In this document: in pieces, positions 19,990-47,312 of the stretch
Layout of the letters: every line of letters starts with the position of its first letter
How positions within the stretch are numbered: the stretch's first letter is position 1
Virus record (IMG/VR): IMGVR_UViG_3300029977_000004
Location: 1-47,312 of that record
Direction: 5' to 3' (one strand)
DNA length: 47,312 bases
Source: a virus
Program-made: the position numbers and the translations under genes
The notes under the pieces: model-generated
Seen by the model: the letters and a program-made list of their open reading frames with translations, nothing else
The model's database searches: none
Told to the model about the DNA's origin: nothing

Positions 19990-20000
19990 AACACGCCTCC

Positions 20001-20834
20001 TTATAACAGTAATAATAATTGGTCGTTATCGATAAAACTTTTGACCGTAGATATAACTTTGTCATGAACATCTTTATAACTTATATTGAGATTGTAATTC
20101 TTTATGAGAACTTCCCAATTTATCTCGGTATCGTACTTAACCGGATCTACTAAACCAGCTTGAGCAAAAGCTAAAATACGTTCTTGACTAGTTGGATTTG
20201 AACTGTCCGCAATTCTATTTTCTTCGTCTACAACTGCGTAAGATGACCATGTCTTCGAGTAATCGACGCCTAAACCAGTACCGAGTACAACAATCTCGCC
20301 TTTCTTAAGGTTAATAAAAGGAGCGATGACTTTTATCTTGTTTCTACGGTTAAGTTCTGTAACATTGTTAATAGCTTCGACATATTCTGGAGTACAATCC
20401 CAGTAACCGTAAATATCACGTTGTTGAGCACCATAATAAACGACGTCACATTTGTTAGCTTCGGCGTAAGCTAAACAGATACTTAACAAAATGGTATTCC
20501 TAAAAGGTACGTATGTAATAGGTTGATCTTCGTTACCCTTGATCTCTTCTAAAGTAGGTACCTTTACATCGTTGCTAACTAGAGCGGTGCTTTTACCAAG
20601 CAAGTCTTTCATAAAAGAAATATCGACTACCTTATGATCGTAAACTTTTACACCGATCGATTCACCGATTTTCTTAAGTTCGTTTACTTGATACTTAGCC
20701 ATCTCTAGCTCTATCTTGTGTTTCTGACCGTAGTAAAATGATATCGGATATATATCGTTCTTGAGAACTTTAACGACAAAATGTGCTAAAGTTGTTGAAT
20801 CTAAACCGCCTGATATTGAGACTACTGCTTTCAT
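20001..20834 (-). CDS. queC: QueC, preQ0 synthase lacking its zinc-binding cysteines
   Basis: The product has 277 residues. The ATP pyrophosphatase P-loop is intact (SGGLDST at 8-14), as are the family motifs YYGQKH and YVPFRNT at 108-114. QueC turns 7-carboxy-7-deazaguanine into preQ0. Normal QueC binds zinc with a Cys in TWSCY and three in CxxCxxCxxR. Here these read TWSSY (195-199) and DSSNPTSQER (210-219), so all four Cys positions are Ser, Asp or Asn. The flanking family motif AFAQAGLVDP is kept, so the alignment is firm. The start follows AAAAGGAGGT. Either this form folds without zinc or its function has shifted. Confidence 0.85.
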   Translation of the reverse strand: MKAVVSISGGLDSTTLAHFVVKVLKNDIYPISFYYGQKHKIELEMAKYQVNELKKIGESIGVKVYDHKVVDISFMKDLLGKSTALVSNDVKVPTLEEIKGNEDQPITYVPFRNTILLSICLAYAEANKCDVVYYGAQQRDIYGYWDCTPEYVEAINNVTELNRRNKIKVIAPFINLKKGEIVVLGTGLGVDYSKTWSSYAVVDEENRIADSSNPTSQERILAFAQAGLVDPVKYDTEINWEVLIKNYNLNISYKDVHDKVISTVKSFIDNDQLLLLL

Positions 20835-20901
20835 ATTTATTACCTCCTTTTCGTAGAATTATTAAACTTTCAGATTAGGTTCGTCGTTGAACCGTTTTCC
20901 G

Positions 20902-21150
20902 TCATCCTTTGATGATATACCGGATCAACATTGTAATGAGAGCGACAATGCTCAAAATAAAAAACATGTAACCGATTATTATCGATATAAATCCGGGTAT
21001 AACCATATACGCTTTCGAATTAAGAATATTACCGTTTTTATCGATGTTGTTTGCGCCGGTTACGACCAAAAATAATCCGAAACAATATAACCCGATAGAA
21101 ATTAACAGCCATAACCACCAACGCGTTACTACAAATATTATTACGCTCAT
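20902..21150 (-). CDS. Small membrane protein with two spans
   Basis: The product has 82 residues with two hydrophobic spans, about 3-28 (WWLWLLISIGLYCFGLFLVV) and 48-76 (VIPGFISIIIGYMFFILSIV), joined by a polar loop. It should sit in the cytoplasmic membrane. The ATG overlaps the preceding stop (ATGA) and has AAAGGAGA upstream. It could be a holin-like, superinfection-exclusion or host-takeover protein; the sequence does not say which. The 66 bases to queC hold only that gene's ribosome site. Confidence 0.6.
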   Translation of the reverse strand: MSVIIFVVTRWWLWLLISIGLYCFGLFLVVTGANNIDKNGNILNSKAYMVIPGFISIIIGYMFFILSIVALITMLIRYIIKG

Positions 21151-21452
21151 CTTTTGTTTCTCCTTTCTAGTTCTTTTTCGATTTCTTTCTTTAAAAACTT
21201 TAAAAATTCTGTTCTTTGGTTCTTGAAAAACTCTTTAAAGAATATAAGATCGTTTCTGATAATTTTCTCGCCAACAACTTCTTTCATCCTGACAGCTTGC
21301 ATTAAAACCCAACCTACAAGGTCAACTAATTCTTCTTCCCATTCGCGAGACATGTCGTTCAACAAATACGCGTCTTTGTATTTTTGACTACTTTTCTCGA
21401 CTTTTTCAACGACTTTTTGTAGTAAATCTTTGAAAATTTTCTTGTTGTACAT
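21147..21452 (-). CDS. Small helical protein, weakly MazG-like
   Basis: The product has 101 residues from ATG at 21452, with AAGGAGG upstream. A longer frame from 21485 is rejected. The middle (SREWEEELVDLVGWVLMQAVRM) has the acidic helix pattern EExxD of MazG-like nucleotide pyrophosphohydrolases, but the second acidic pair is not clear. The C-terminus is very basic and helical. If the weak likeness is real it would act on nucleotides, which fits the base-modification genes around it. Otherwise the function is unknown. Confidence 0.5.
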   Translation of the reverse strand: MYNKKIFKDLLQKVVEKVEKSSQKYKDAYLLNDMSREWEEELVDLVGWVLMQAVRMKEVVGEKIIRNDLIFFKEFFKNQRTEFLKFLKKEIEKELERRNKR

Positions 21453-21627
21453 AAGTTTCCTCCTTGTCGCGAATTTTCCAACCAAATAAAAGTTTAGCGA
21501 TAACTTTTTGGAGTTTATTGTACTTGCGAGGACTGTATAGTTTAAACCCGTCGATATACATCACTGATTTGATATTATCGCCGAAGTATCTACCTATAGG
21601 AAATTTCTGAACGATTCTTCTTTTCAT
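21406..21627 (-). CDS. Small basic protein of unknown function
   Basis: The product has 73 residues from ATG at 21627, preceded by AAGGAGG. A longer frame from 21678 overlaps folE2 and is rejected. The protein is basic with many Tyr and Phe (MYIDGFKLYSPRKYNKLQKV). Its end overlaps the next gene by 47 bases. No domain is recognised. It lies directly after folE2 in the base-modification cluster. Confidence 0.55.
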   Translation of the reverse strand: MKRRIVQKFPIGRYFGDNIKSVMYIDGFKLYSPRKYNKLQKVIAKLLFGWKIRDKEETYVQQENFQRFTTKSR

Positions 21628-21637
21628 AAACGCCTCC

Positions 21638-22507
21638 TTATACAAAACCGTGTTCGCTTCGATACCATTTACTGCCACGTTTGACTCTTCCGATATAAGC
21701 GATAGCGTTGTGTTTGTGTATAGATTCGAAACTCTCTACTTTGACACGGAACCACTTTACATGCTTCAGCTTTATAACTTTATCGGCGATTCGACGAGCA
21801 AGACCTTCTACAAAAACAGGATTGTCGTACGCGTGTTCCGTAACGTATTTTTCATCAGGTCTCTTAAGAATAACGTAAACGGGAGAGCTGGCGGACTTCT
21901 CAACAATATTTATTAATGTTTCAAAATATACCCCTGGTAACTTGTCGACTTCTACTTGTAAAGTAACCTCGGCACGTTGGTTATGAGCGCCTTTACCTAT
22001 TTGTTTTTCGTGATCAATCATACAAAGTGACCTTGAACACGGACATACTGTTTGAACAGGTACCTTAACTTGAACAAAATATCTAAAAGGGGGATATATG
22101 ATTGATACGGCACTATCATACAACATGATGGCTTTCTTTCGTGTCACGGGAGATACAGACATCTTCGCAAAAGGAAATTCTAGCTTCAAATAAATATCTT
22201 TAAGCTTAAGCCTACGATACAATCTTTTAGCAATTCCTTTAAAAGAACTAACAGTCAGAAACTTACCTACATGTTCGAACAAAACCTCAGGTAACCTTGA
22301 CATGTCAACTCCTTTACGAATTTTGGGTAACCGAGCGTAAGCATCTACTTTAGCAATAACATGACGAATACCGACAACATCGTTTGTACCGGGTTTATAA
22401 ATTATCGATATGGGTACTTCTAGGTTAGTAATACCGGCTTTATCAACGTCCATCTTTATAATATCAGGTAAATGTTGTTCATCTACTAAACCCTTTTGAT
22501 CTTTCAT
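21638..22507 (-). CDS. folE2: GTP cyclohydrolase FolE2-type (first step to 7-deazaguanine)
   Basis: The product has 289 residues and shows the FolE2 (COG1469) landmarks: an N-terminal DVDKAGI-type strand, VCPCS followed by LC near 155-167, KGAHNQRAEV near 180, and SFESIHKHNAIAYI near the C-terminus. These enzymes turn GTP into dihydroneopterin triphosphate, the entry to folate and 7-deazaguanine synthesis. With queC, queE and the DpdA-like gene nearby, the likely role is DNA base modification. The start follows GAAGGAGG and overlaps the polymerase gene by 29 bases. Length is close to bacterial FolE2. Confidence 0.88.
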   Translation of the reverse strand: MKDQKGLVDEQHLPDIIKMDVDKAGITNLEVPISIIYKPGTNDVVGIRHVIAKVDAYARLPKIRKGVDMSRLPEVLFEHVGKFLTVSSFKGIAKRLYRRLKLKDIYLKLEFPFAKMSVSPVTRKKAIMLYDSAVSIIYPPFRYFVQVKVPVQTVCPCSRSLCMIDHEKQIGKGAHNQRAEVTLQVEVDKLPGVYFETLINIVEKSASSPVYVILKRPDEKYVTEHAYDNPVFVEGLARRIADKVIKLKHVKWFRVKVESFESIHKHNAIAYIGRVKRGSKWYRSEHGFV

Positions 22508-30795: not shown

Positions 30796-31464
30796 TTAAA
30801 CACCCCTTCTGGTATTGAAAGTTTCGATATGTAACCTAGGAGACAAATTAAACCGGTGTTTTAGGGCAAATTCCCAAGCTAACGGTAAATGTTTAAGATA
30901 TACATCGCGGTTCTCGCCCCTGGGCATTATCCATACCTTAAAATTAGGAACGTCGAAACCTTTAACGATTGACAAGATGAAGTTATCGTCATCCGCGTCG
31001 TTGTATACAAACTTAACAGCGTAATTTGCGTAACCTCGAAATATCAAATAACTTAATAGATGCGGCGCGGTATCGACCTCTTTAGTTTGAAATTTTGGGT
31101 TCTTGGGTGAAATTGTCCATAAAGTAACTTTGTTAACTAAATGATCGATGGTTGAAGGAATACAAGTACCGTTAGTCTCAATTTCGATAAATAATGGATT
31201 AACTTCGTTTACGATATAATCGATATATCGGGGACCGTTACCAAAAAGGGGTTCGTTACCCGTAAAAACGATCAAAGGATGATTCTTCATCAAAGAAATA
31301 TCGTCGGATGTTAAGAGACGATTTTCTTCACGAGCATATCTGGAATCGCAAAAACAACACGATAGAGGACAACCTGTAGCAAGACGAACGAAAACTCTGG
31401 GTTGACCAACGTTAACTCCTTCACCTTGAAATGAGTAAAAAACTTCGGTCACAAATATATTCAT
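30796..31464 (-). CDS. queE: QueE, 7-carboxy-7-deazaguanine synthase (radical SAM)
   Basis: The product has 222 residues. It begins with the QueE hallmark FYSFQGEG, then RLATGCPLSCCFCDSRYA, where CxxxCxxC binds the [4Fe-4S] cluster of radical SAM enzymes. FTGNEPLF replaces the more usual TGGEPLL, and IEIETNGTC follows. The enzyme turns 6-carboxy-tetrahydropterin into 7-carboxy-7-deazaguanine, the substrate of QueC. The start has AAAAGGAGG close upstream and overlaps the metallopeptidase stop (ATGA). It lies 10 kb from queC. Confidence 0.9.
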   Translation of the reverse strand: MNIFVTEVFYSFQGEGVNVGQPRVFVRLATGCPLSCCFCDSRYAREENRLLTSDDISLMKNHPLIVFTGNEPLFGNGPRYIDYIVNEVNPLFIEIETNGTCIPSTIDHLVNKVTLWTISPKNPKFQTKEVDTAPHLLSYLIFRGYANYAVKFVYNDADDDNFILSIVKGFDVPNFKVWIMPRGENRDVYLKHLPLAWEFALKHRFNLSPRLHIETFNTRRGV

Positions 31465-37481: not shown

Positions 37482-40400
37482 CTAATTTTTGATTAACCAT
37501 AATGCGGATGTTTTCAAGTAAGATGAAATACCTAACTCTTTAGCGTAATCTTTGATTCGTTCAATCATTTCCTCTTTTGTTATATTTGGTTCGCTAAGTC
37601 TTATTTCCTCAACAAATTTTAAAATTTTACCTACCCACGGCCCAGGTGGTAAATTAAACAATCCAAGAATTTCGTCTCCCGTTATGAACCTGGGTTCAAA
37701 AGCTTTTTGATATCTCTCTTTTTGTTCTTTTACCCGTCTTTTCAAATCTTCGAGGTTTTCTAATGATTGTTGAACATATTCACTCTCTGACGACATAACA
37801 TCGATTGTAGCAAATTCTAAAATTTTTTCCAATAAATCTCCCATTTTTGATATAAACCGTCTAATCGCGGCATCGCTCCATTCTTTGGTATATGTGTGTG
37901 GTACCATATGTAAAGAAATCCTTTTTACCACTTCTTCAATAATGTGATTAGGAAATTTTAACCTTTTAAGAATTTCACGAGCTTGTTCACTACTTAAATT
38001 CTCGTGGCCTATAAATCTTGCAACGTTATCTATAATAACTTTCGTTGCTGGTTTTGAGATATCGTGAAGAAGAGCAACAAGCCGGTCTACTAAATCGGCA
38101 TTTGATTTCTCGACAGCATTAAGAATATGAGTCCATACATCCTCTCTGTGATAAGGAGAATCGTGAGAAACGCCGTAAGTTTGAGATAACTCGGGTAAAA
38201 ACTTATCTAGCAAACCTGTTTCTCGTAACAACTCGAAAGCTCTTTTTGGGTTAGGTCCTTCGAGTATTTTTATGAGTTCATCTCTGATCCTCTCAGTTGA
38301 AACAATATCCAACCGGTCCACGTTCTTCTTAATCGCTTCTAACGTTATAGGATCGATATCCATACCGAATTTTACTGCTTGACGTATTGCTCGTAACATC
38401 CTTAACGGATCTTCGAGAAACACAATCTCAGGGTTGTCTGTTGTAGTCCGGATTATACCGTTCTTGATGTCTGTCAAACCCTTACCAGTAGGATCAATGA
38501 TATCAAATGTTTCCAAGTCAAGATATAACGAGTTAATTGTAAAATCTCTTCGGTAAACGTCTTCGTCTAAAGATCCGTAGCTAACAACTGGTTTCCTACT
38601 ATCTGGATCGATGTAAGCTTCTTTCCTAGGAATAATAACATCAACGTTAACACCGTCTATGTTAACTTTACCGGTACCAAACTCTTCAAAGAGAACATAA
38701 TCTTTTAAATCGTATTCTTCTACTAAATGTTTTATGAAATTTGATGTTGCGGACATTCCTTCATCATCTTTTACCACAACTATATCTAGGTCAGATGATG
38801 GTTTTCCCATAACATAGTCACGGACAAATCCACCTGCCGCATATACTTTATATCCGTACTTTTTTGCTACTTTTACAATTTTGTCAATGATCGATTGTAT
38901 CTCAGGACTAATTGGACCTGATTGCTTCAACCACTTTCTTCTTATAGATAAACTACTTTGTTTTTCAAACTCTCCTCGATAACCTTCCCATTTCTTGGCT
39001 GATTCTTGTATTTCAAACGGTATTTTTGATTTGTCGAAGTTTAAATATTCGGAAAATTTGTATGAACATTTAGAATCTGTTGATATACTTTGTATTAATT
39101 CGTTAGGTATTTCTTTACCTAATCTAAGTAGTTTTATAGCAATGCCGTATGAATAATAAGGATCTTTTGACATACCTTGTATTATTTCATTCAGTATATC
39201 TTTACCATATTCAAGCAGTTCTATAGCAAACCGGTATGAACGCCAAGAATCTTTTGATATACTTTGTATTATTTCATTTGGTATTTCTTTATTACGTTCA
39301 AGTAGTTCTATAGCAAAATAGTATGAATATTTAGAATCTTTTGATATACTTTGTATTATTTCATTAGGTATAAAGTTCAGTACTTTGGCGACATTTAAAG
39401 CAATTTTAGGATTTGTTATAGCTTCTTGCCAAATATGTTCTTTAATATCTTCCAAACCTAATTTGTTAGCCGCTATAAACGCGTCCCCCACGAACTCTTG
39501 ATCTAACAGTCTTTCTACAACTTCTCTTATCTCATCTTCTTTACCTTTCCTAAATTGTTTGTTATAAGTTAGAACGAATAGTCTACCTCGATCAGATAAG
39601 GTGTCGTACTCCTTGGCAAAATACTCTGCAAGATGAACTCTATCACGATCACTCATCATATCGGGAGGTATTGATACGGATAAATTCTCTTTAACGAATT
39701 CCATAAACTGTTTGTATCCTATACCTATCTCTTCAAATATTTTCAACAACTCTTGTTCAGGAAATAACAACTTATCGAACGGGTCTCTGATTTCGCCGCC
39801 ATGAGATGCTACAGCGTACGGATATTTGTTTTTGAGAATTACATACAACGGCCCTACTCTCAAATAATCTTTGGCATATTCAAGACTGTATCCGTACTTC
39901 TCTGATCCTGATACGCATACTTCTGTTATATTAAGTAAAGAACAAGTGTCTTGCATAACTTTAGCATCGGTTATCTTTATGATTGTATAAGGAGGTTTAT
40001 CGTAAATAATTTCGGCTCCGGCTGGTAATTTTGACGGATCTGTTAAAGGTTTTAATTGTTTAGGCTCAAACTTGGCTATTATAGGTTGCATAAATTCTAA
40101 GAATTGGTCTACGGTCTTGAACCGGTCTATGTTTTTACCTTCTTCTGGTATGTCTTTTGTCTTCTTAAGTCTATTATGTAACGCTAAAGCTTGTTCTAGT
40201 TTATGTCTTAACGTATCATTCTCCAATATACCAGGTTTATTTTGCTTTCTCAGGTCACGGTCTATTTTAGCTATCCATTTGGTATATTCGGCGTTATTAC
40301 CGGTAGGGTCTAGTTTGTTTAGTTTCCTTACTCGTTCTTCGTCTATACCCATTTGTAAAATATATGGTAGTTTACTTTCTAGATCTGCCGTCTTTAACCA

Positions 40401-40781
40401 TTTATCTCTCGCACTACTTTCTACCTTAAAACTTTGTTCGATTCTGCTCATCAAATCTTGCGGGTCTACTTTCAAAGCGTAATCTGTTGCTGTTTCGTAA
40501 TCACCTGTTGTTCTAACAAAATCCCAGAATTTGTCTACAACATTGGACCAGTGTAAATGAGACTCTAAAGTACGAATAAGGTTTCTCAAATTCTCTTTGC
40601 CAATAACGAATGTAATATAAGGCTCTGCGTGCTCAAATTTTTCAATTAACTCTTTGTAAGGAAACTTTCTGGTTTTCGACAAATACCCTAGTTGTTTAAG
40701 GAAAGGTATAGCATGTTGCAAAAACAACTCTACTTTCTTTCGGTCTATTTTACTCGATCTTTTTAACCATTTATTAATCAT
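37482..40781 (-). CDS. Large multi-domain protein ending in tRNA-nucleotidyltransferase-like and HD domains
   Basis: The product has 1099 residues from ATG at 40781 (ATGA overlap). It begins MINKWLKRSS; KWLK recurs near 127 and 617. Residues 250-350 resemble a domain of phage polyvalent proteins (YLRVGPLYVILKNKYPY, GGEIRDPFD). Residues 473-588 are four 29-residue repeats beginning NEIIQSIS. From about 645 it is a class II nucleotidyltransferase: AAGGFVRD, SSDLDIVV, RRDFTINS, FLEDPLRMLRAIRQ, TERIRDEL, then an HD domain (HREDVWTHI, LLHDISKP). This half resembles CCA-adding enzymes and poly(A) polymerases. Such fusions may enter the cell with the DNA. The substrate is inferred from family. Confidence 0.8.
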   Translation of the reverse strand: MINKWLKRSSKIDRKKVELFLQHAIPFLKQLGYLSKTRKFPYKELIEKFEHAEPYITFVIGKENLRNLIRTLESHLHWSNVVDKFWDFVRTTGDYETATDYALKVDPQDLMSRIEQSFKVESSARDKWLKTADLESKLPYILQMGIDEERVRKLNKLDPTGNNAEYTKWIAKIDRDLRKQNKPGILENDTLRHKLEQALALHNRLKKTKDIPEEGKNIDRFKTVDQFLEFMQPIIAKFEPKQLKPLTDPSKLPAGAEIIYDKPPYTIIKITDAKVMQDTCSLLNITEVCVSGSEKYGYSLEYAKDYLRVGPLYVILKNKYPYAVASHGGEIRDPFDKLLFPEQELLKIFEEIGIGYKQFMEFVKENLSVSIPPDMMSDRDRVHLAEYFAKEYDTLSDRGRLFVLTYNKQFRKGKEDEIREVVERLLDQEFVGDAFIAANKLGLEDIKEHIWQEAITNPKIALNVAKVLNFIPNEIIQSISKDSKYSYYFAIELLERNKEIPNEIIQSISKDSWRSYRFAIELLEYGKDILNEIIQGMSKDPYYSYGIAIKLLRLGKEIPNELIQSISTDSKCSYKFSEYLNFDKSKIPFEIQESAKKWEGYRGEFEKQSSLSIRRKWLKQSGPISPEIQSIIDKIVKVAKKYGYKVYAAGGFVRDYVMGKPSSDLDIVVVKDDEGMSATSNFIKHLVEEYDLKDYVLFEEFGTGKVNIDGVNVDVIIPRKEAYIDPDSRKPVVSYGSLDEDVYRRDFTINSLYLDLETFDIIDPTGKGLTDIKNGIIRTTTDNPEIVFLEDPLRMLRAIRQAVKFGMDIDPITLEAIKKNVDRLDIVSTERIRDELIKILEGPNPKRAFELLRETGLLDKFLPELSQTYGVSHDSPYHREDVWTHILNAVEKSNADLVDRLVALLHDISKPATKVIIDNVARFIGHENLSSEQAREILKRLKFPNHIIEEVVKRISLHMVPHTYTKEWSDAAIRRFISKMGDLLEKILEFATIDVMSSESEYVQQSLENLEDLKRRVKEQKERYQKAFEPRFITGDEILGLFNLPPGPWVGKILKFVEEIRLSEPNITKEEMIERIKDYAKELGISSYLKTSALWLIKN
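39018..39365 (-). repeat. Four tandem 87-base repeats inside the large protein gene
   Basis: Four units of exactly 29 codons follow one another. Each begins with NE[IL]IQ, contains SKD or STD and a paired aromatic (SYYF, SYRF, SYGI, SYKF), and ends near KEIP or KDIL. The predicted form is a helix-turn-helix solenoid. Two related units occur in the small protein encoded at 41743-42225 (RLIQEASKDPAKSYLLAQ and KLIRGISKSPYYSYYF). Base identity between units is high, so expansion is recent. Confidence 0.85.
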
Positions 40782-41686
40782 AACAGCCATTTAGACTTGC
40801 TACCGAATCTTTTCTCGATCTTACTTTCAAAATAACTTTTTATGGTGTTATAAACACGCGAATATAAAGTTGGGAAAGTTTTACCTAACTCTCTCTGAGC
40901 TGTTTCGTTAAGTTGTTGCGCGGTATCTTCGGCTATCTGATCTGCTATTTCGTATAACTGTTTTTTGATAGCTGACTCGGACAAAGTTACATCGAAAACT
41001 AGTTCGTTATATTTCTTTTCGAAAAGACGATCTGCTTTGTCTACTAAATCTTCTATCTCTTTCGTTAGTACGCTGGGTCCAAAAATATTTTGTATCGTGT
41101 CTATAACGTCTTGTTTAACCATTGCTTCTACGTAAAAAGATTTTTTCTTTACGTGTTTAAGAAGCTCGTCGAGAGCATCTTCTTTCTGTTCGAGTTTTTT
41201 CTTGACAACTTCTTCCGTGAGAAAACCTAAAGCTTCGTCGATTTTTCGTTTACGTTTGATCTCTTCGGGGGTTTGTCGTTGAGGTAAAGCAACACTTTTA
41301 GCGTACCATTCTAAATACTTTTTGAACGTATTTTTAACTTTATCTCTATCTTCTTTTGTCCATTGACCAGATACCCATTTTATACCGCTCATATACGTAT
41401 TCGCGGCAGAAAACGCTACTTTATCAATTATACCTGACACGTCAGTACTTGTACTTGTCTTTTCGTATTTCTCTTTAAACTGTTTCTCTAACCATCCCGC
41501 TATATTCTTTCCTTCCGCGTCGGGTATACTAACGTTTCGGTACCATTTAAGAATATCCCTTAACTCGTTAACCATTTCGTTAATCTTTTGTAACCGCTCG
41601 TTTTCTATCGATTGAGTCTGTTCTTCGGATTTCTTCTGCTCTTTTTCGCCTTCTGTTTGAGCTGCTCTTAACCATTTATTTCTCAC
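40778..41686 (-). CDS. Helical protein of unknown function beginning with the KWLR motif
   Basis: The product has 302 residues from GTG at 41686, which has AAGGAGG at perfect spacing. A longer frame from ATG at 41746 has no comparable site. It begins (M)RNKWLRAAQ and ends SKSKWLL, so the motif sits at both ends. Most is charged helix (KKKLEQKEDALDELLKHVKKK, then ETAQRELGKTF). The stop overlaps the start of the large protein (ATGA). No catalytic motif is seen. Its relation to the large protein (shared KWL motif, shared upstream sequence) suggests a common role, perhaps as virion-packaged or injected proteins. Confidence 0.65.
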   Translation of the reverse strand: MRNKWLRAAQTEGEKEQKKSEEQTQSIENERLQKINEMVNELRDILKWYRNVSIPDAEGKNIAGWLEKQFKEKYEKTSTSTDVSGIIDKVAFSAANTYMSGIKWVSGQWTKEDRDKVKNTFKKYLEWYAKSVALPQRQTPEEIKRKRKIDEALGFLTEEVVKKKLEQKEDALDELLKHVKKKSFYVEAMVKQDVIDTIQNIFGPSVLTKEIEDLVDKADRLFEKKYNELVFDVTLSESAIKKQLYEIADQIAEDTAQQLNETAQRELGKTFPTLYSRVYNTIKSYFESKIEKRFGSKSKWLL

Positions 41687-41742: not shown

Positions 41743-42225
41743 TCATCTCTTAGCTGATTCTTGTATTTCAGGCGGTATCTTTGATTTGTCAAAATCAAAA
41801 TATTCAGAGAAATAGTATGAATAATAAGGACTTTTTGATATACCTCGTATTAACTTGATGGGTACTTCTATACCATACTGTTCCGACCGCTGCGCAAGAA
41901 GATAAGATTTCGCCGGATCTTTAGATGCTTCTTGTATTAACCTCTTAGATAATTTGCCTCGGTTGATCAGTTCGCTAACAAATTTCCCTCCCAGGCCAAA
42001 TCTAACGGCGTAGTCTATCGCTTTGTCGGGATATGTGTCAACGTGCTTTAATAACGGTTCTATAAACTCATAAAGGAAAGGTAAGTTGAGTTCTTGATGT
42101 TCGTAATGTAACACGTCGGAAATAAACCTTAAAACGTAGTCGGTCTCTTCCTCGAATACACCGCCCTCAAACGATCTTTCAATTATATCTAGTAGCTTAC
42201 GTGGTTCGAAACGGTCCTTTCCCAT
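41743..42225 (-). CDS. Protein with repeats shared with the large multi-domain protein
   Basis: The product has 160 residues. Residues 90-158 hold two 29-residue repeats and end in FDFDKSKIPPEIQESAKR, nearly the same as residues 581-597 of the large protein. The base sequence at 41706-41866 is roughly 78 percent identical by eye to 38950-39112. In the large gene the frame continues through TGG into GEFEKQSSL; here the Trp codon is TGA and one base is missing, so the frame ends. It is the first gene of the leftward series, preceded by AAAGGAAGG. Confidence 0.65.
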   Translation of the reverse strand: MGKDRFEPRKLLDIIERSFEGGVFEEETDYVLRFISDVLHYEHQELNLPFLYEFIEPLLKHVDTYPDKAIDYAVRFGLGGKFVSELINRGKLSKRLIQEASKDPAKSYLLAQRSEQYGIEVPIKLIRGISKSPYYSYYFSEYFDFDKSKIPPEIQESAKR

Positions 42226-43215
42226 CTTTTAAAAACCTTCCTTTTTAAACCTGCTAAAAGTAGAATCCTGGTACCTTTCTTGATCCCTTTTCCTCTCGGG
42301 GCCCTTTCCTGAAGGATAGGGTTGACCTTTTCTTAAAAATATTTATGCCGCCTAACATTAAATAGGATTTGTTTTTCCGAGTCTTGTCGGAAAATAGTTC
42401 TCGGTAAATAACATATAACCCTCTTTCGATAGGAAAAGTTCCTCCCCGAAAGATTTAAATACAACTTGATCTTCCTGAGAAGCCTTTGGTTCTTTGGAAA
42501 GTCGGCGAGTTTAATCGAAAATACGCCTTTTAGAATGTTAAAGTTGTAAGTAAATCGTTCCTCCTGATCGGAAAGTTTCGTCTTTATTTGAAAATTATAC
42601 TTTCGGGGAAAAGTTTGAAAAATTTCCTGTTTAACCCTTTTTTAAGTAAATAATACAGTTTTTTTGGGAATCCCCTTCCGAAAGTCCCCCACTCCCTCGA
42701 GAAAAAGGCTTCTTTTTAAAACGTGATTTTAATGTTTGATCTTTAGGTGAACCTTTGGGGAAAGTTGAATAGTTGAGAGTTGAAAATATACCGTACTTTT
42801 GAGAGAGCCGTTTTCTTAAAGAGAAAATTTGTCTTTTAATACGAAAGTTGTTAAAAATGTACTCTTAATCGAATAACCTTTTGCCGAAAGTTTGAAAGTT
42901 GTTCCTTTGCTTGGTTGGCTCTCCCGGAGTTAGTTGCCTAAACCCTCCTTTGAAGTTGGGTTTGTACTAACCGTACTATAGTTGTTGACCCGATTACACT
43001 TTTTTTTGTTTGTTACCCCGGAATCTTGCGCCTTTAATTGTACCTTTTGATTGGATTTTGATTGTACCCTTGACCGCGTGCCCTTTCGAAGTTGTCGCTT
43101 TGAAAATGTGCCCTAACCGTACTTTTGGTTTTGATTGGGGTTGGTTGCTTTGATCGTGCTTTTATATCGTACTTTTGATCATATCTTTGATCGGGATTGG
43201 CTGCTGGTGGCAACG
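42226..43215. other. Non-coding divergent control region
   Basis: No convincing gene lies between the leftward and rightward series; the one frame above 60 codons (43034-43252, minus) is Pro/Gln-rich, has no ribosome site and runs into the leader. GAAAGT or GAAAGA occurs about ten times between 42440 and 42900. Between 42790 and 43190 a looser motif GTACYYTTGAYY recurs, together with six copies of TTTGATY (43040-43200). An 8-base hairpin pairs 42373-42380 with 42387-42394. Promoters in both directions must lie here; a possible rightward one is TTGGTT, 16 bases, TATATC (near 43143-43170). The repeats could be regulator sites or iterons of an origin. Confidence 0.5.
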
Positions 43216-43250
43216 GCGGGCCGGTTGGATAGCTTGTCCGATCGGCTCGC
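43216..43250 (+). promoter_or_regulatory. Heptaloop hairpin 1
   Basis: A 14-base stem pairs 43216-43229 with 43237-43250, including three G-U pairs, around the 7-base loop TAGCTTG. It is the first of seven such hairpins in the rightward arm and lies in the leader of the first gene. Confidence 0.6.
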
Positions 43251-43257
43251 AATTTTT

Positions 43258-43283
43258 ATCCGGAGGAAACTTTTCCTCCGGAT
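43258..43283 (+). promoter_or_regulatory. 12-base perfect palindrome in the first leader
   Basis: ATCCGGAGGAAA at 43258-43269 is followed after two bases by its exact reverse complement at 43272-43283. The short centre suits a protein-binding operator as well as an RNA hairpin. It contains GGAGG, but no start codon follows at ribosome-site distance. Confidence 0.6.
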
Positions 43284-43284
43284 G

Positions 43285-43333
43285 ACCGCTAGGTTGATCC
43301 GGCGGGGCCTAGCGGTAGTACATTCTCCGTCGG
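43285..43333 (+). promoter_or_regulatory. Pseudoknot leader, class A, copy 1
   Basis: A perfect 9-base stem (43285-43293 with 43308-43316) closes the 14-base loop TTGATCCGGCGGGG. Loop bases 43299-43307 can pair with 43325-43333 (seven Watson-Crick and two G-U pairs), ending just before the AAGGAGG of the next gene. The same fold with a different stem sequence occurs at 43661-43710. Confidence 0.65.
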
Positions 43334-43350
43334 GAAGGAGGTGAGTAAAA

Positions 43351-43578
43351 ATGGCAGGAATCTACAAAATCGTAGATATAAAAACAGGTCAAGTCGTCAA
43401 GGTTATAGGCTACCTTCGCGACTTAAAAGCAGCGATCCGTTGGAGTGAAACACACAAAGGTGATCCAGACGTTTCCTTGCTAATGAAGCAGATTAATGAA
43501 CAGCTGGAACCTCGCGGGCTCAAACTCATCCGCGAGGACCCACCTTGCAAAATCGACATTAGTGGCTTGCTCGAATAA
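43351..43578 (+). CDS. Small right-arm protein, family 1 (copy 1)
   Basis: The product has 75 residues and follows AAGGAGGTGAG. It begins MAGIYKIVDIKTGQVV, then LRDLKAAI, and ends KIDISGLLE. It belongs to one family with the products at 44984 and 46341: an N-terminal hairpin of two strands, a helix (LMKQINEQLEP) and a C-terminal strand pattern. Inside the coding region CCTCGCGG (43510-43517) pairs perfectly with 43530-43537. No known domain is recognised. As first gene of an outward, probably early, transcript it may act in host takeover; that is inference. Confidence 0.75.
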   Translation: MAGIYKIVDIKTGQVVKVIGYLRDLKAAIRWSETHKGDPDVSLLMKQINEQLEPRGLKLIREDPPCKIDISGLLE

Positions 43579-43584
43579 CTCAAT

Positions 43585-43617
43585 AAGGAGGTAGGGCTGG
43601 TTAGGCTCTACCTCCTT
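43585..43617 (+). terminator. Heptaloop hairpin 2, possible terminator
   Basis: A 10-base perfect stem (43585-43594 with 43608-43617) extends by three pairs (one G-U) to the loop TGGTTAG at 43598-43604. It begins 6 bases after the stop of the first gene. There is no T-run, so transcript-end protection or processing is as likely as termination. Confidence 0.55.
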
Positions 43618-43623
43618 GCTTGC

Positions 43624-43660
43624 CTACCTAAAGGGATCGCTTGATGGTCCCTTTAGGTAG
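43624..43660 (+). promoter_or_regulatory. 13-base perfect hairpin between genes 1 and 2
   Basis: CTACCTAAAGGGA at 43624-43636 pairs perfectly with 43648-43660 around an 11-base loop. It lies directly between heptaloop hairpin 2 and the second pseudoknot leader, making three structures in a row. Confidence 0.6.
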
Positions 43661-43710
43661 ACCTGTCGGTTGGTCCGGCAGGGCCGACAGGTTAAAAATT
43701 CTCTGCCGGA
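43661..43710 (+). promoter_or_regulatory. Pseudoknot leader, class A, copy 2
   Basis: A perfect 9-base stem (43661-43669 with 43684-43692) closes the 14-base loop TTGGTCCGGCAGGG. Loop bases 43674-43683 pair with 43701-43710 over 10 bases with one G-U pair, directly before AAAGGAGG. Compared with copy 1 the stem sequence differs but pairing is kept, and one loop pair changes from G-C to A-T together. A promoter reading (TTGGTC, 17 bases, TAAAAA) is also possible. Confidence 0.7.
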
Positions 43711-43725
43711 AAGGAGGTGATAGGT

Positions 43726-44454
43726 ATGTTAAAAGCGTGGACACCGAGCGACAGTTGCCAAAGTTGGTCCTTGTATCAGAAGATCCGAGATGCGGGGATC
43801 AGCTCAGTCAATCAACTACTGGACACGATCAACGCAAAACTACCTCGCAAGTTGTTCGGTAATAATAACCTCGATGAGAGTGCAACCAGACAAATTTGCA
43901 AGGCATACTGGGACCGCGTTCGTGAAAAGTTCAGGTTTGGGTCGGAATACGAAGGTTGGTTCGTCCCGGTGCAAGTTGTATCAATTGAAGAGTTCAAGGC
44001 CAAGACACTCCAGCTCATCGGGGCTGGATTGTGGAAGTTGAAACTGAACATGTTATCTGAGAGCGACGAAGGTGTAATCCGAGCTCGTTTGACCGCGTTA
44101 AAGGAGGCCGTAAGATTGGCCTCCAAGTTCCGTGAGGTGTATATATGTCAGAGTTGCTATGGGCTCAATATTAGGGATATGCGTCTTGCGGATGTGGTTA
44201 CATTCAGTACTAAAGGCGAGTCTTTCGAGCGGCTGTTACTTGGAGAAGATCAGGTGTGGTTTGTAAAACATACAAGGGGGGACTACACCTGGTACGTTTA
44301 CTTCGGGGACGGAAACGTTCCCGAAACGCTGGATTATCGGGTTGATGTGAAAGTTGATTCTGGCGGGAACTTTTACATCTTCCCGCTGGATGATCTCAGC
44401 GAACTGCTAGATCCGCAAGACTTTGAAACGATTAAAGCCTTGGTCGGCAAGTAA
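43726..44454 (+). CDS. Unknown right-arm protein
   Basis: The product has 242 residues from ATG at 43726, after AAAGGAGGTGAT; a GTG nine bases earlier is inside the ribosome site and is rejected. It is the largest gene of this arm. It is mixed alpha/beta, with a basic helical middle (FRSG-like EKFRFGSEYEG, LTALKEAVRLASKF), one CQSC pair near residue 145 and an aromatic beta region (VWFVKHTRGDYTWYVYFG). No family is recognised. The base composition is richer in G and C than the leftward genes, and several perfect inverted repeats lie within it (for example around GGAGGCC near 44104-44126). Confidence 0.7.
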   Translation: MLKAWTPSDSCQSWSLYQKIRDAGISSVNQLLDTINAKLPRKLFGNNNLDESATRQICKAYWDRVREKFRFGSEYEGWFVPVQVVSIEEFKAKTLQLIGAGLWKLKLNMLSESDEGVIRARLTALKEAVRLASKFREVYICQSCYGLNIRDMRLADVVTFSTKGESFERLLLGEDQVWFVKHTRGDYTWYVYFGDGNVPETLDYRVDVKVDSGGNFYIFPLDDLSELLDPQDFETIKALVGK

Positions 44455-44470
44455 GGCCAAGGCTTTTTTT
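44434..44470 (+). terminator. Intrinsic terminator overlapping the end of gene 2
   Basis: AAAGCCTTGG at 44434-44443 pairs with CCAAGGCTTT at 44457-44466, and a run of seven T follows (44464-44470). The stop codon lies in the loop. This is the only classical terminator with a T-run found in the rightward arm, so it probably divides the arm into two transcripts or attenuates it. Confidence 0.75.
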
Positions 44471-44550
44471 GCCTTCCTCGCTGACTGATTGACCCGTTTA
44501 AGAGGACCGACCTCCAAGAACAAAAAGGAGGCCGGGGGAGGTAAATAAAC

Positions 44551-44847
44551 ATGAAAAAACAAAAACAAAAACAAAACAAGGCGGTTGTAAGACCGCCGAA
44601 AGTGACCACGATCGCACAAAAGATCGTGGTCGTCAAAAATTACTTGGCGGAGCAATTCCGCCAAGTAGGCATTGAGGAGGCGAATACAAGCCTCCTCAGT
44701 AAAGTCGTAGTTGCAGTCCTCAGCAAGGTGGCTGAGGCTGAGGGCTGTAAGATTGAGGACTTGTTGACAGAGGTACGAGTGGTAAAACCCACACCTTCTG
44801 ACCCGGCCATAATGTTTAGAGGCCGGGTCGTTGTGTGGTGGTTATAA
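44551..44847 (+). CDS. 98-residue protein whose coding region is a chain of hairpins
   Basis: The frame follows GGGGGAGGT and encodes a basic N-terminus (KKQKQKQNKAVVRPPK) and a helical middle (TIAQKIVVVKNYLAEQF, LLSKVVVAVLSKVAEAEG). The base sequence is odd: perfect inverted repeats of 6, 10, 11, 9, 7 and 9 bases follow one another from 44580 to 44829, and an 8-base palindrome covers the stop codon. The frame may be translated and the RNA also functional. The alternating hairpins could equally mean that the main product is a structured RNA. No protein family is recognised. Confidence 0.6.
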   Translation: MKKQKQKQNKAVVRPPKVTTIAQKIVVVKNYLAEQFRQVGIEEANTSLLSKVVVAVLSKVAEAEGCKIEDLLTEVRVVKPTPSDPAIMFRGRVVVWWL

Positions 44848-44852
44848 CCACC
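44580..44852 (+). repeat. Array of consecutive perfect hairpins within a gene
   Basis: Arms: 44580-44585 with 44592-44597; 44604-44613 with 44622-44631; 44641-44651 with 44657-44667; 44673-44681 with 44690-44698; 44718-44724 with 44731-44737; 44800-44808 with 44821-44829; 44837-44844 with 44845-44852. Each is perfect, with loops of 5-12 bases except the last, a palindrome. The arms are unrelated to one another, so this is not a CRISPR or simple tandem repeat. Confidence 0.75.
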
Positions 44853-44873
44853 GTACGGTCCTCGGCAACGGCG

Positions 44874-44966
44874 GACGAGCCTGTTGGGCTCGTCTGACCT
44901 AGGCCGGTTAGCCAGACCGGTCTAGGTCAGGCCGCGGGCTCCGTAAGGAGCCCTAATCCGGGCCTG
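44874..44966 (+). promoter_or_regulatory. Leader of gene 4 with heptaloop hairpin 3
   Basis: Three structures follow each other: an 8-base hairpin (44874-44881 with 44887-44894); a 14-base stem with one G-U pair (44895-44908 with 44916-44929) around the heptaloop TAGCCAG; and a 7-base hairpin with GTAA loop (44936-44942 with 44947-44953). The last is enclosed by CAGGCC (44928-44933) with GGCCTG (44961-44966). The final strand lies immediately before AAAGGAGG. Confidence 0.65.
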
Positions 44967-44983
44967 AAAGGAGGTGATTAAGT

Positions 44984-45217
44984 ATGAGACTGTACAGAAT
45001 CGTCAAGAAAGATACAGGCGAGGTAATAAAAGAGATCGGACATTTGTCCGATCTCAAAGCTGCGGTCGGGATACAGCCAAGTCAGTTTGTGATCGTAAAA
45101 CAGCTCATCCGCACGATTAATGCTCAACTCGATCCGAAAGGTCTTCAACTCACATGGATCGAGGATCCTAATGCTGGTCTTGGTGCAAAAATCGATGTTG
45201 AAAATTTGTTAAAATGA
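44984..45217 (+). CDS. Small right-arm protein, family 1 (copy 2)
   Basis: The product has 77 residues and follows AAAGGAGGTGAT. It begins MRLYRIVKKDTGEVIKEIG, then LSDLKAAV, IRTINAQLDPKGLQL and ends KIDVENLLK. It is clearly related to the product at 43351 and more distantly to that at 46341. Within the gene GAGATCGGAC (45032-45041) pairs perfectly with 45046-45055, and CTCGATCC (45128-45135) with 45156-45163. The second hairpin is at the same protein position (LDPKGLQL) as the one in the first copy, but with different bases. The function is unknown. Confidence 0.75.
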   Translation: MRLYRIVKKDTGEVIKEIGHLSDLKAAVGIQPSQFVIVKQLIRTINAQLDPKGLQLTWIEDPNAGLGAKIDVENLLK

Positions 45218-45241
45218 TCCGGCCGCAGTCTTAGTCCATAG

Positions 45242-45266
45242 GGGGCAGGAGGTGTACTCCTGCCCC
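45242..45266 (+). terminator. 10-base perfect hairpin after gene 4
   Basis: GGGGCAGGAG at 45242-45251 pairs perfectly with 45257-45266 around a 5-base loop. Two T bases follow, too few for a strong terminator. It lies 25 bases after the stop. Confidence 0.5.
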
Positions 45267-45284
45267 TTACCTCGCCAGGTCTGT

Positions 45285-45355
45285 TTACATAAGCTGACTA
45301 GCTGGGTCAGTTTATGTAACCGGGCTCTGGTCGGTAAGACCAAATCTAAGCCCGG
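45285..45355 (+). promoter_or_regulatory. Leader of gene 5 with heptaloop hairpin 4
   Basis: A 14-base stem with one G-U pair (45285-45298 with 45306-45319) closes the heptaloop TAGCTGG. Directly after it CCGGGCT (45320-45326) pairs with AGCCCGG (45349-45355), enclosing a 5-base hairpin (45328-45332 with 45338-45342). The arrangement and the 14-base stem match the leader of gene 4, although the stem sequences are unrelated. The last strand ends just before AAAGGAGG. Confidence 0.65.
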
Positions 45356-45372
45356 AAAGGAGGTGAATAACC

Positions 45373-45681
45373 ATGACAGATAAAGAGAAATGTATAGTAT
45401 GTGACCGAGTTGTGGAAGACGGATGGGCGAAAATCAACGGAACAACCGTCTGCGAAGAATGTTTGTTCAAACTTGTGAAAGCCGTGACACGCGGGTTGGA
45501 TTGGGACTGGGTACGTGGTGATTGTATTGTGTGCGAACATGAGTACGAAGGTGCTCCGGTGAGTATGAACTTGATCGTGTGCAAAGAATGCTTGTTTGAT
45601 TTGTTATCTTTGTACTTTGATACTGACGGAACATGGTCCGACGAGGAAGAAACTGAGGAAGTCGAAACTGAGGTTAAATAG
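45373..45681 (+). CDS. Double zinc-ribbon protein
   Basis: The product has 102 residues and follows AAAGGAGGTGA. It holds two copies of one motif: CIVCDRVVEDGW with VCEECLFKLV, and CIVCEHEYEGAP with VCKECLFDLL. Each is CxxC-(about 16-17)-CxxC and should bind one zinc ion. The C-terminus is strongly acidic (DEEETEEVETEV). The duplication is evident from the repeated ECLF. Such small zinc proteins often bind host proteins or nucleic acids; no specific target can be named. Confidence 0.75.
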   Translation: MTDKEKCIVCDRVVEDGWAKINGTTVCEECLFKLVKAVTRGLDWDWVRGDCIVCEHEYEGAPVSMNLIVCKECLFDLLSLYFDTDGTWSDEEETEEVETEVK

Positions 45682-45694
45682 TCTTAGTAATTCG

Positions 45695-45719
45695 GGGCGG
45701 GTCTTGTTAGGACCCGCCC
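45695..45719 (+). terminator. Heptaloop hairpin 5
   Basis: GGGCGGGTC at 45695-45703 pairs perfectly with 45711-45719 around the 7-base loop TTGTTAG. It begins 13 bases after the stop of gene 5. There is no T-run beyond TTGTAT. Confidence 0.6.
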
Positions 45720-45749
45720 TTGTATAGACCTGGAAAGGAGGGTAATCTT

Positions 45750-45950
45750 ATGAAAAATTTGGCTGAAGAATTAACTGAGACCTGGGTCAATTTTAGGTAC
45801 AAAGATCCGTACGAGACGGTTTATCGGAAAGCTGTAAAAGTTACCGAAGAATGTGATCGTGTAGTCAGACTGTGCAAATGGGCCAAAGAACTTGTTAGTA
45901 ACCTCGAAAGAAAACTTGAGGAAAAAGAATCTGTAACCAAGTCTAGTTAG
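45750..45950 (+). CDS. Small helical right-arm protein
   Basis: The product has 66 residues from ATG at 45750, after GAAAGGAGGGT; an earlier in-frame start lies before the ribosome site and is rejected. It is a charged helical protein (RKAVKVTEECDRVVRLCKWA, then LVSNLERKLEEKE). The stop codon TAG forms the last three bases of the heptaloop of the next hairpin. No family is recognised. Confidence 0.65.
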   Translation: MKNLAEELTETWVNFRYKDPYETVYRKAVKVTEECDRVVRLCKWAKELVSNLERKLEEKESVTKSS

Positions 45951-45958
45951 GACTTGGT
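45936..45958 (+). terminator. Heptaloop hairpin 6 overlapping a stop codon
   Basis: ACCAAGTC at 45936-45943 pairs perfectly with 45951-45958 around the loop TAGTTAG. The 5' arm is coding sequence and the loop ends with the stop codon of the preceding gene (45948-45950), so a terminating ribosome would cover or open the hairpin. Confidence 0.6.
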
Positions 45959-45997
45959 CTGTAACCAAATCTAGATCAAGTAAGGAGGTAATTAGGT

Positions 45998-46252
45998 ATG
46001 AAAGTCGCGTTACGAGTATCTATAGACGATACGCCAGGTCTAACTGAGCAGCTTGTTGCAATGTTCGGAATACCGGTGTGTTCAGAATATCGTACCTACT
46101 GGTTTCGTTATACCTGGATATTCGATAGCATGGAAGAAGCGTTGAAAGCTGAAAAGATTGCTCAAAGTATCGTAGGTGAACATGGAAGTACTGAGATATT
46201 AGGACCTGATGATAATGTCGAAGAAGAAGAAAAAAATGAGGATGAAGACTAA
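45998..46252 (+). CDS. Small acidic right-arm protein
   Basis: The product has 84 residues and follows AAGGAGGTAA. The first 70 residues look like a ferredoxin-like alpha/beta fold (MKVALRVSIDDTPGLTEQL, YWFRYTWIFDSMEEALKAE). The last 15 are nearly all Glu and Asp (NVEEEEKNEDED). Acidic tails of this kind occur in small phage inhibitors and DNA mimics, but no target is evident. No family is recognised. Confidence 0.65.
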   Translation: MKVALRVSIDDTPGLTEQLVAMFGIPVCSEYRTYWFRYTWIFDSMEEALKAEKIAQSIVGEHGSTEILGPDDNVEEEEKNEDED

Positions 46253-46270
46253 ATCAAGACTTGGTTTACC

Positions 46271-46323
46271 AAACGTAACCTTACCTTGACCGGGTTACGT
46301 TTGTAACTAAATTCAGGTCAAGG
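46271..46323 (+). promoter_or_regulatory. Pseudoknot leader, class B, copy 1
   Basis: A perfect 10-base stem (46271-46280 with 46293-46302) closes a 12-base loop. CCTTGACC in the loop (46284-46291) pairs perfectly with GGTCAAGG (46316-46323), which lies directly before AAGGAGG. TTGACC, 16 bases, TAAATT could instead be read as a promoter. A near-identical copy lies at 46874-46924. Confidence 0.7.
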
Positions 46324-46340
46324 AAGGAGGTGAATAAAGA

Positions 46341-46553
46341 ATGAGAATCTACAAAATAATACGTAATAGCGATGGTCAAGTTGTGTTCCAAGGTAAACTT
46401 TCTGAACTTAAGACTTACTTCAATGTTGACCCTAAGAAAAATGTAGTTGTGAAATCTTTCCTTAACAAAGTTCAGAAAGTACTTGGCGACAAATATACTT
46501 TGTCCGTAGAAGAGTACTCGTCACTAACTCTACCTAAAGACCTTACCGAATAA
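46341..46553 (+). CDS. Small right-arm protein, family 1 (copy 3)
   Basis: The product has 70 residues and follows AAGGAGGTGA. It begins MRIYKIIRNSDGQVVFQGK, then LSELKTYF, VKSFLNKVQKVLGD and ends LTLPKDLTE. The N-terminal pattern and spacing place it in the family of the products at 43351 and 44984, though it is the most divergent. A 6-base hairpin (GACAAA with TTTGTC) lies in the coding region near the position of the hairpins in the other copies. The function is unknown. Confidence 0.7.
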   Translation: MRIYKIIRNSDGQVVFQGKLSELKTYFNVDPKKNVVVKSFLNKVQKVLGDKYTLSVEEYSSLTLPKDLTE

Positions 46554-46578
46554 AAGGTAAGGTTGTTATAAGGTAGAG
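46528..46578 (+). terminator. Nested hairpin over the end of gene 8
   Basis: CTCTACCT (46528-46535) pairs with AGGTAGAG (46571-46578); inside, ACCTTACC (46540-46547) pairs with GGTAAGGT (46556-46563). Both stems are perfect. The stop codon of gene 8 lies in the inner loop. No T-run follows. Confidence 0.55.
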
Positions 46579-46585
46579 AAATAAA

Positions 46586-46624
46586 GGAAGTACTGGGGCC
46601 TAGTTAGGGTCTTTGCGTACTTCC
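46586..46624 (+). promoter_or_regulatory. Heptaloop hairpin 7
   Basis: GGAAGTAC at 46586-46593 pairs perfectly with 46617-46624. Inside, six further pairs including G-U pairs lead to the heptaloop TAGTTAG at 46601-46607. It lies between genes 8 and 9, 30 bases before the start of gene 9. Confidence 0.5.
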
Positions 46625-46653
46625 GTAAATTTAAAAGAAAGGAGGTGATCGAA

Positions 46654-46875
46654 ATGAAAGAGATAGTGGTAAAACCTGTCGTAAATACTGACAAACTAAG
46701 TGTAACACTAGAACAAGAAGATGTTGATCCTGATACATGGTCCCGTTTAATCTCCGGCGATAAAGAAGTTGCCAAAGAGTTGTACATCGAAGTAATCCGT
46801 GACTTCTTTGCCGATATCAACAACGTGGATTTTGATAGTATAATACAAGATGTTACAGTAGAAACCGAAAAATAA
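46654..46875 (+). CDS. Small right-arm protein of unknown function
   Basis: The product has 73 residues from ATG at 46654, after AAAGGAGGTGAT; a GTG nine bases earlier is within the ribosome site and is rejected. It has two N-terminal strands (KEIVVKPVVNTDKLSVTLEQ) and an acidic helical part (KEVAKELYIEVIRDFFADI). The stop codon overlaps the first stem of the next pseudoknot leader by two bases. No family is recognised. Confidence 0.65.
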   Translation: MKEIVVKPVVNTDKLSVTLEQEDVDPDTWSRLISGDKEVAKELYIEVIRDFFADINNVDFDSIIQDVTVETEK

Positions 46876-46924
46876 CGTAACCTTACCTTGACCGGGTTAC
46901 GTTTGTAACTAAATCTAGGTCAGG
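46874..46924 (+). promoter_or_regulatory. Pseudoknot leader, class B, copy 2
   Basis: A perfect 9-base stem (46874-46882 with 46895-46903) closes the same 12-base loop as copy 1. CCTTGACC (46886-46893) pairs with GGTCAGG (46918-46924) over seven pairs including one G-U. The element starts within the stop codon of gene 9, ends just before AAGGAGG, and is nearly identical over about 55 bases to 46272-46328. Confidence 0.7.
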
Positions 46925-46941
46925 AAGGAGGTGATCAAAGA

Positions 46942-47312
46942 ATGAGAAAGAAATGTCCGTATTGCGACAATAAAACGGAACTCGTTGACGTAATCCTTGC
47001 TCAGGCCGTAGTCAAGTTCTACGAACTCGATGTTAAGTCGGTACGTGAGTTAGAAGAATACCTTTTCTGGAAAAGTGATGATAGTATAATTGTTAGTCCT
47101 ATAGGTCAACTGTACAAAGGACTTGCTTGTTCTGAATGCGACGGATTTTTGAAAGTAAGAAAGTTTGGTGTCGTAAAATCGAGCAAAGAATACAATCGGT
47201 TCTTGAGTGTAACGACTAACTTGACGTCGGCCTGGGTTACCAAAAATCTTGATAAGATAACGAGAGATATCTATTTTGGTAACCCTACTTATAAAAAGTT
47301 GCCTGAGTCAGT
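46942..47312 (+). CDS. Zinc-ribbon protein, N-terminal part (gene runs off the right edge)
   Basis: The frame is open from ATG at 46942, after AAGGAGGTGAT, to the window end, giving 123 residues. It begins MRKKCPYCDNKTELV and later has LACSECDGFLKV, a CxxC pair at each end of about 60 residues, which should bind zinc. The insert between the pairs is acidic and helical (VRELEEYLFWKSDDS). The rest is basic. It may belong to the same group of small zinc proteins as the product at 45373, though not closely. Function unknown; C-terminus missing. Confidence 0.65.
   Translation, partial: MRKKCPYCDNKTELVDVILAQAVVKFYELDVKSVRELEEYLFWKSDDSIIVSPIGQLYKGLACSECDGFLKVRKFGVVKSSKEYNRFLSVTTNLTSAWVTKNLDKITRDIYFGNPTYKKLPES

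Follow-up and report, generated by a model that had tools for sequence, protein, structure and literature searches.

We analysed IMG/VR virus record IMGVR_UViG_3300029977_000004, a sequence of 47,312 bases from an uncultured phage (the whole stretch is called the window below), and describe a set of seven RNA hairpins that share one loop on unrelated stems. The genes up to position 42225 point leftward and form a tailed-phage set that includes terminase and a family A DNA polymerase. A long non-coding gap (42226–43350) separates this block from ten small rightward genes (genes 1–10), an array that extends past the right end of the record. The seven hairpins, termed H7, have the loop TNGYYNG (U-N-G-Y-Y-N-G in RNA) and stand upstream of the Shine-Dalgarno (SD) sequence in seven of the ten rightward leaders, those of genes 1, 2, 4, 5, 6, 7, and 9.

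All H7 hairpins lie on the + strand. The leader of gene 1 holds a hairpin of 14 base pairs (bp) with the loop TAGCTTG (43216–43250), followed by AATTTTTATC, which makes it the sole H7 with a U-rich tail. Stems of 14 bp were also found before gene 2 (43584–43618, loop TGGTTAG) and gene 5 (45285–45319, loop TAGCTGG), and the stem before gene 4 had 17 bp (44892–44932, loop TAGCCAG). The hairpins of gene 6 (45694–45720, loop TTGTTAG) and gene 7 (45936–45958, loop TAGTTAG) had stems of 10 bp and 8 bp, respectively, and the final TAG of the latter loop serves gene 6 as its stop codon. The hairpin before gene 9 (46586–46624, loop TAGTTAG) consists of 6 bp plus a U·G pair, a 1x3 internal loop, and a further 8 bp. 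Relative to the upstream stop codon, the positions range from a stop within the hairpin to one up to 67 nucleotides (nt) away. An earlier reading made from the letters alone, here the sequence-only reading, had already placed and folded these seven stem-loops correctly and given all loops as TNGYYNG. Most of its extents stand, while three perfect stems proved slightly longer (43584–43618, 44892–44932, and 45694–45720), and four stems, rather than the three it counted, reach 14 bp or more.

The consensus of the seven hairpins is G-N-N-[U-N-G-Y-Y-N-G]-N-N-Y, in which the outer U and G of the loop pair with each other, leaving a true loop of five bases, N-G-Y-Y-N. The pentaloops are AGCUU, GGUUA, AGCCA, AGCUG, UGUUA, AGUUA, and AGUUA. 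In the alignment, G occupies the 5' side of the third pair below the loop in all seven hairpins, paired as G-C or G·U. The stems had been said to differ completely while staying paired; pairing was indeed found in 98.4% of the cells of the stem alignment, compared with up to 60% in shuffles, and double changes in seven of nine stem pairs indicate strong covariation. The fixed third pair departs from that description. The evolutionary evidence consists of the independence of seven stems inside one genome.

The loop is conserved beyond chance. Its alignment score was 68.9 bits, compared with at most 47.5 bits when seven 7-mers were drawn at random from the same region 200,000 times, and none of these draws had three invariant columns. 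To avoid circularity, we used a leave-one-out ranking in which each H7 was scored from the other six; six ranked first and the weakest tied for second among 94,558 positions on both strands. Blind enumeration of hairpins whose stem reached 8 bp recovered six of the seven H7, the seventh being missed for its internal bulge, and found no further TNGYYNG loop in the window or on the minus strand. A loop-directed scan of both strands of the whole window returned H7 alone, plus one chance hairpin of 5 bp. A covariance model, trained on the same seven hairpins that it scored, gave them 23.8–28.2 bits, compared with 14.6 bits for the next site in the window, and had no comparable match on the minus strand. 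The conserved loop and covarying stems claimed in the sequence-only reading thus withstood random draws, shuffles, and leave-one-out ranking.

Base pairing also indicates in which molecule the element acts. Stems of the hairpin-dense start of the array contain nine G·U pairs and two A·C pairs, and the loop of every H7 is closed by U·G; this wobble excess and loop closure point to + strand RNA, in the sense of the genes. A role at the DNA level, as a cruciform, is disfavoured by the same counts (nine G·T against two A·C, every loop-closing pair U·G). Together, these results support H7 as an element of + strand RNA in which selection acts on the loop and the stem drifts.

The sequence-only reading had proposed that the hairpins may be one of several interchangeable signals of transcript ends or processing, replaced in some intergenic regions by a terminator or a class B pseudoknot. 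An intrinsic terminator is a G+C-rich hairpin with an immediate T run, and H7 as a class lacks this form: in the terminator scan the T run was missing after six of the seven hairpins, and only 43216–43250 was terminator-like. For that first H7, the nearest other gene is ~1 kb off and on the opposite strand, which leaves a 5' leader element as its only possible role. Given six hairpins without a U-tract and one without an upstream gene, H7 does not mark transcript ends.

A second leader element, which the sequence-only reading had caught in part, is a helix whose 3' strand finishes 1–2 nt before AGGAGG. It was significant in seven of the ten array leaders (genes 1, 2, 4, 5, 7, 8, and 10; p < 0.02 each), in none of 26 leftward control genes, and in one of 14 leaders of the related contig G004. 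In most cases, a linker resembling AAATCTA or AAATTCT precedes the 3' strand of the helix. In genes 1, 2, 8, and 10 the helix is P2 of an H-type pseudoknot, and these four pseudoknots have three unrelated sequences for P1 and two for P2. The pseudoknot of gene 1 (43285–43334, + strand; P1 ACCGCTAGG/CCTAGCGGT, P2 TCCGGCGGGG/CTCCGTCGGG; p = 0.004) and that of gene 2 (43661–43710, + strand; P1 ACCTGTCGG/CCGACAGGT, P2 TCCGGCAGGG/CTCTGCCGGA; p < 0.002) both end 1 nt before AGGAGG. Pseudoknots were also found in two leaders that lack H7, those of gene 8 (46270–46323, + strand; P2 CCTTGACC/GGTCAAGG, linker TAACTAAATTCA; p = 0.004) and gene 10 (46874–46924, + strand; p = 0.006). Class B pseudoknots had been assigned to the junctions of genes 7–8 and 9–10 only, as substitutes for the hairpins; since H7 and a pseudoknot occur together in the leaders of genes 1 and 2, neither stands in for the other. 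What survives of the sequence-only reading is an RNA element with a selected loop, without the interchangeable transcript-end role.

In genes 4 and 5 the SD-adjacent helix surrounds a small hairpin. The helix of gene 4 (44927–44967, + strand; TCAGGCC/GGCCTGA; p = 0.016) encloses a GTAA-capped hairpin and overlaps the outer pairs of H7, and that of gene 5 (45320–45355, + strand; CCGGGCT/AGCCCGG; p = 0.002) directly adjoins H7. The helix of gene 7 (45952–45981, + strand; ACTTGGTCTG/TAGATCAAGT; p = 0.002) shares the 3' arm of H7, and the two structures are mutually exclusive with near-equal energies (−10.1 kcal/mol for the helix and −10.4 kcal/mol for H7). Such clear exclusion was seen only in gene 7, the competing helix of gene 6 being weak. 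We rejected a general on/off switch of the SD through this helix, as predicted accessibility went up in genes 1, 5, 7, and 8, stayed flat in genes 2 and 6, and went down in genes 4 and 10.

Over 49 nt (46272–46320 and 46874–46922), the leaders of genes 8 and 10 share 96% identity, while the genes themselves differ; the leader alone appears to have been duplicated or exchanged recently. In G004, three leaders (L024:8541–8557, 9083–9105, and 11722–11738) share a different SD-proximal hairpin with the tip TGAATGTC, two of the three coming after a TATAAT-containing sequence, and this hairpin is a possible second leader motif. In another relative, G005, the SD-adjacent helix was not significant (p = 0.50), though a nested hairpin can be drawn by eye.

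With seven H7 and seven SD-adjacent helices, the array carries structured leader elements upstream of the ribosome-binding site, the arrangement of protein-bound translational operators. Something probably reads the H7 loop to control these genes. Our favoured explanation, to which we give a probability of roughly 0.45, is that H7 is a cis-acting post-transcriptional operator in small-gene leaders, its loop read by one trans-acting factor. Recognition would depend on the N-G-Y-Y-N pentaloop with its closing U·G pair and on a G in the third pair, while any stem of at least about 8 bp would serve. The factor, most likely a phage or host protein, would bind this loop on the + strand transcript and set the translation or stability of each downstream cistron, and the pseudoknot or helix abutting the SD may act as a second, partly overlapping control layer. 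The operator reading is supported by the place of H7 upstream of the SD in seven of ten leaders, including that of gene 1, which has no upstream gene. What the analysis shows is the folds, through prediction and covariation, along with the conserved loop, the + strand sense, and the place in the leader. A single trans-acting factor would be the natural reading of a shared loop on varied stems; we infer this single factor, its protein nature, the direction of control, and the co-transcription of the genes.

Several results weigh against an operator. The leaders of genes 3, 8, and 10 lack H7, and the spacing between H7 and the SD varies from about 16 to 93 nt. None of the five related contigs that we found by terminase and polymerase has H7; of these, a comparable array is present only in G004, where genes and leaders differ, while G005 covers only the first genes of the array, G003 ends before it, and the coordinates of G001 and G002 stop short of it. 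No RNA-binding candidate was identified among the array proteins, which had almost no matches, and a fair structure model of the gene 4 family (predicted local distance difference test, pLDDT, 80) had no structural neighbour at E ≤ 0.001; the model of gene 3 was poor (pLDDT 55). Much of the evidence would also be compatible with metabolite binding or with a purely structural role.

The closest functional precedents are the leaders of phage T4 genes 43 and 32. The gene 43 operator is a hairpin with a conserved loop and the gene 32 operator is a pseudoknot, which a 2010 review regarded as perhaps the sole viral pseudoknot that autoregulates translation (PMC3014915). As in the H7 array, a hairpin with a conserved loop, or a pseudoknot, stands in the leader of a DNA phage upstream of the ribosome-binding site. 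Each T4 operator, however, serves one gene and its own product, whereas the H7 loop recurs upstream of seven genes, in many cases alongside a helix next to the SD, and no sequence relation between them was seen. H7 is best described as akin to phage leader operators of known kind. That the U·G-closed NGYYN hairpins and the SD-abutting pseudoknots or helices make up a new class of RNA motif, with the array as one regulon in which one factor controls each cistron separately, has a real chance but is unproven, and we hold it as a doubtful proposal. In phages, leader hairpins and pseudoknots that are read by proteins are known from individual genes. The present genome has seven independent instances of a single loop, with unrelated stems, together with four pseudoknots that abut the SD, a set suited to finding the reader by pull-down and a possible source of a new orthogonal RNA–protein pair; the claim covers this one uncultured genome.

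A processing site is the strongest of the other explanations, although we consider it unlikely. A nuclease would recognise the loop or hairpin and, by cutting close to it, divide a long early transcript into its cistrons, and the downstream pseudoknot would protect the new 5' end. Hairpins between most cistrons and strong SD-adjacent structures downstream, as expected of stabilised 5' ends, agree with this, and early transcripts of T4 are cut in such a manner by RegB (PMC3014915). However, H7 also stands before gene 1, which has no upstream cistron, the stems range from 8 to 17 bp in length, and a conserved loop would require an enzyme other than RNase III. The bacterial enzyme is not known to depend on a loop sequence.

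It might also be that nothing specific reads the hairpins: the first 2 kb of the array would be pervasively folded for mRNA stability at high temperature or for limiting R-loops, and the loop would be favoured for stability only. Folding there is indeed dense: strong inverted repeats occur once per 112 nt in 43200–45330, compared with once per 1,240 nt across the leftward block, and folding z-scores of windows on the + strand reach −7.7. The dense hairpins continue into coding sequence. Against synonymous codon shuffles, genes 2 and 3 had z-scores of −4.5 and −9.6, while eight leftward genes ranged from −0.7 to +1.5; the coding sequence of gene 3 consists of perfect hairpins in series and folds 49 kcal/mol better than the shuffle mean, and that of gene 10 is over-structured as well (z −3.5). 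Yet the adjacent and coding hairpins do not share the H7 loop, and genes 6, 7, and 9 retain H7 in surroundings that are hardly over-structured. H7 is thus not a mere by-product of pervasive structure, and we regard the absence of a reader as improbable.

Less probable still is a ligand-sensing, riboswitch-like element, working through loop–loop dimers like those of guanidine-II or through the SD-adjacent pseudoknots. The mini-ykkC element is instructive, in that its small repeated hairpins had been taken as suggestive of protein binding (PMC2864571) before it proved to be the guanidine-II riboswitch, in which the loops dimerise to bind guanidine (PMC5486947); this history keeps our confidence in a protein reader modest. 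Like H7, guanidine-II places short hairpins that share a conserved loop close to ribosome-binding sites, but it has paired neighbouring hairpins, ACGR loops, loop–loop dimers, and guanidine-metabolism genes (PMC5486947), whereas H7 has U·G-closed UNGYYNG loops, one per leader, before small genes. The H7 loops are mostly not complementary to one another; by eye, a 4-nt complement was found only between those of genes 4 and 5, and loop kissing was rejected. The SD-abutting H-type pseudoknots resemble translational riboswitches, preQ1-I in particular, which likewise sets its 3' strand against the SD, and the phage has preQ0-pathway genes and would make 7-deazaguanine precursors (QueC and FolE2). 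However, H7 is a separate hairpin, the ten genes for small proteins form no metabolic pathway, and the predicted effect on the SD differs from gene to gene. No Rfam 15 family reached its gathering score in the window; in 42200–47312, a search at E up to 10 returned only four unrelated sub-threshold matches and no riboswitch, and the preQ1-I models had no match even there.

Antitermination is about as improbable. An N-like factor would bind H7 on nascent RNA and allow RNA polymerase to read through the terminator after gene 2, a classical intrinsic terminator (44434–44475, + strand) that spans the stop codon of gene 2, with a 12-bp stem and then a T run. Lambdoid boxB elements are hairpins of early transcripts with a conserved GNRA-like pentaloop, linked to boxA and read by a phage protein. 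H7 likewise presents a conserved pentaloop, and gene 3 (44551–44847, + strand, 98 amino acids), directly past the terminator, encodes a small protein with a basic, lysine-rich N-terminus. The H7 pentaloops, however, are not GNRA-like (boxA was not searched for), and seven sites in 3.4 kb exceed what antitermination needs. Mimicry of an anticodon arm was dismissed by eye, as position 33 is mostly not U.

Searches found no homologues of gene 1, its paralogue family, gene 2, the neighbouring protein of 1,102 amino acids, the array DNA, or the leader patterns; a single match to a leader DNA pattern, in contig L030, was a chance one inside a coding region of an unrelated contig. No host or prophage relatives were found through terminase in bacterial genomes, and the published literature that we searched holds no description of the H7 motif.

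Genes 1, 4, and 8 are paralogues; gene 1 (43351–43578, + strand) encodes 75 amino acids and has no family match. Nine of the ten array proteins had no Pfam family above the cut-off. The tenth, a small Cys-rich protein encoded by gene 5 (45373–45681), matched Gin (inhibitor of sigma-G) above the cut-off, and a possible role as an anti-sigma protein in an early array is suggested by this match. A Cys-rich protein resembling it is encoded in G004 (L024:8588–9031). Between the divergent blocks, ~1 kb of non-coding sequence (42226–43215) contains many similar short motifs of the TTGAAAGTT and GTACTTTTGATC types and is perhaps a control region or replication origin.

Further to the left, the 1,102-residue protein (37482–40790) has a C-terminal half that corresponds to a CCA-adding or poly(A) polymerase with an HD domain, with Pfam matches to PolyA_pol, PolyA_pol_RNAbd, tRNA_NucTran2_2, and HD. 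Genes of 7-deazaguanine synthesis lie at 19252–22507 and 30796–31464, with QueC and FolE2 identified by Pfam. The product of 30796–31464, whose Radical_SAM match is below the Pfam cut-off, reads like QueE, and that of 19252–19989, which has no Pfam match, reads like a DpdA-type transglycosylase. This gene set suggests that the phage may modify its DNA with 7-deazaguanine.

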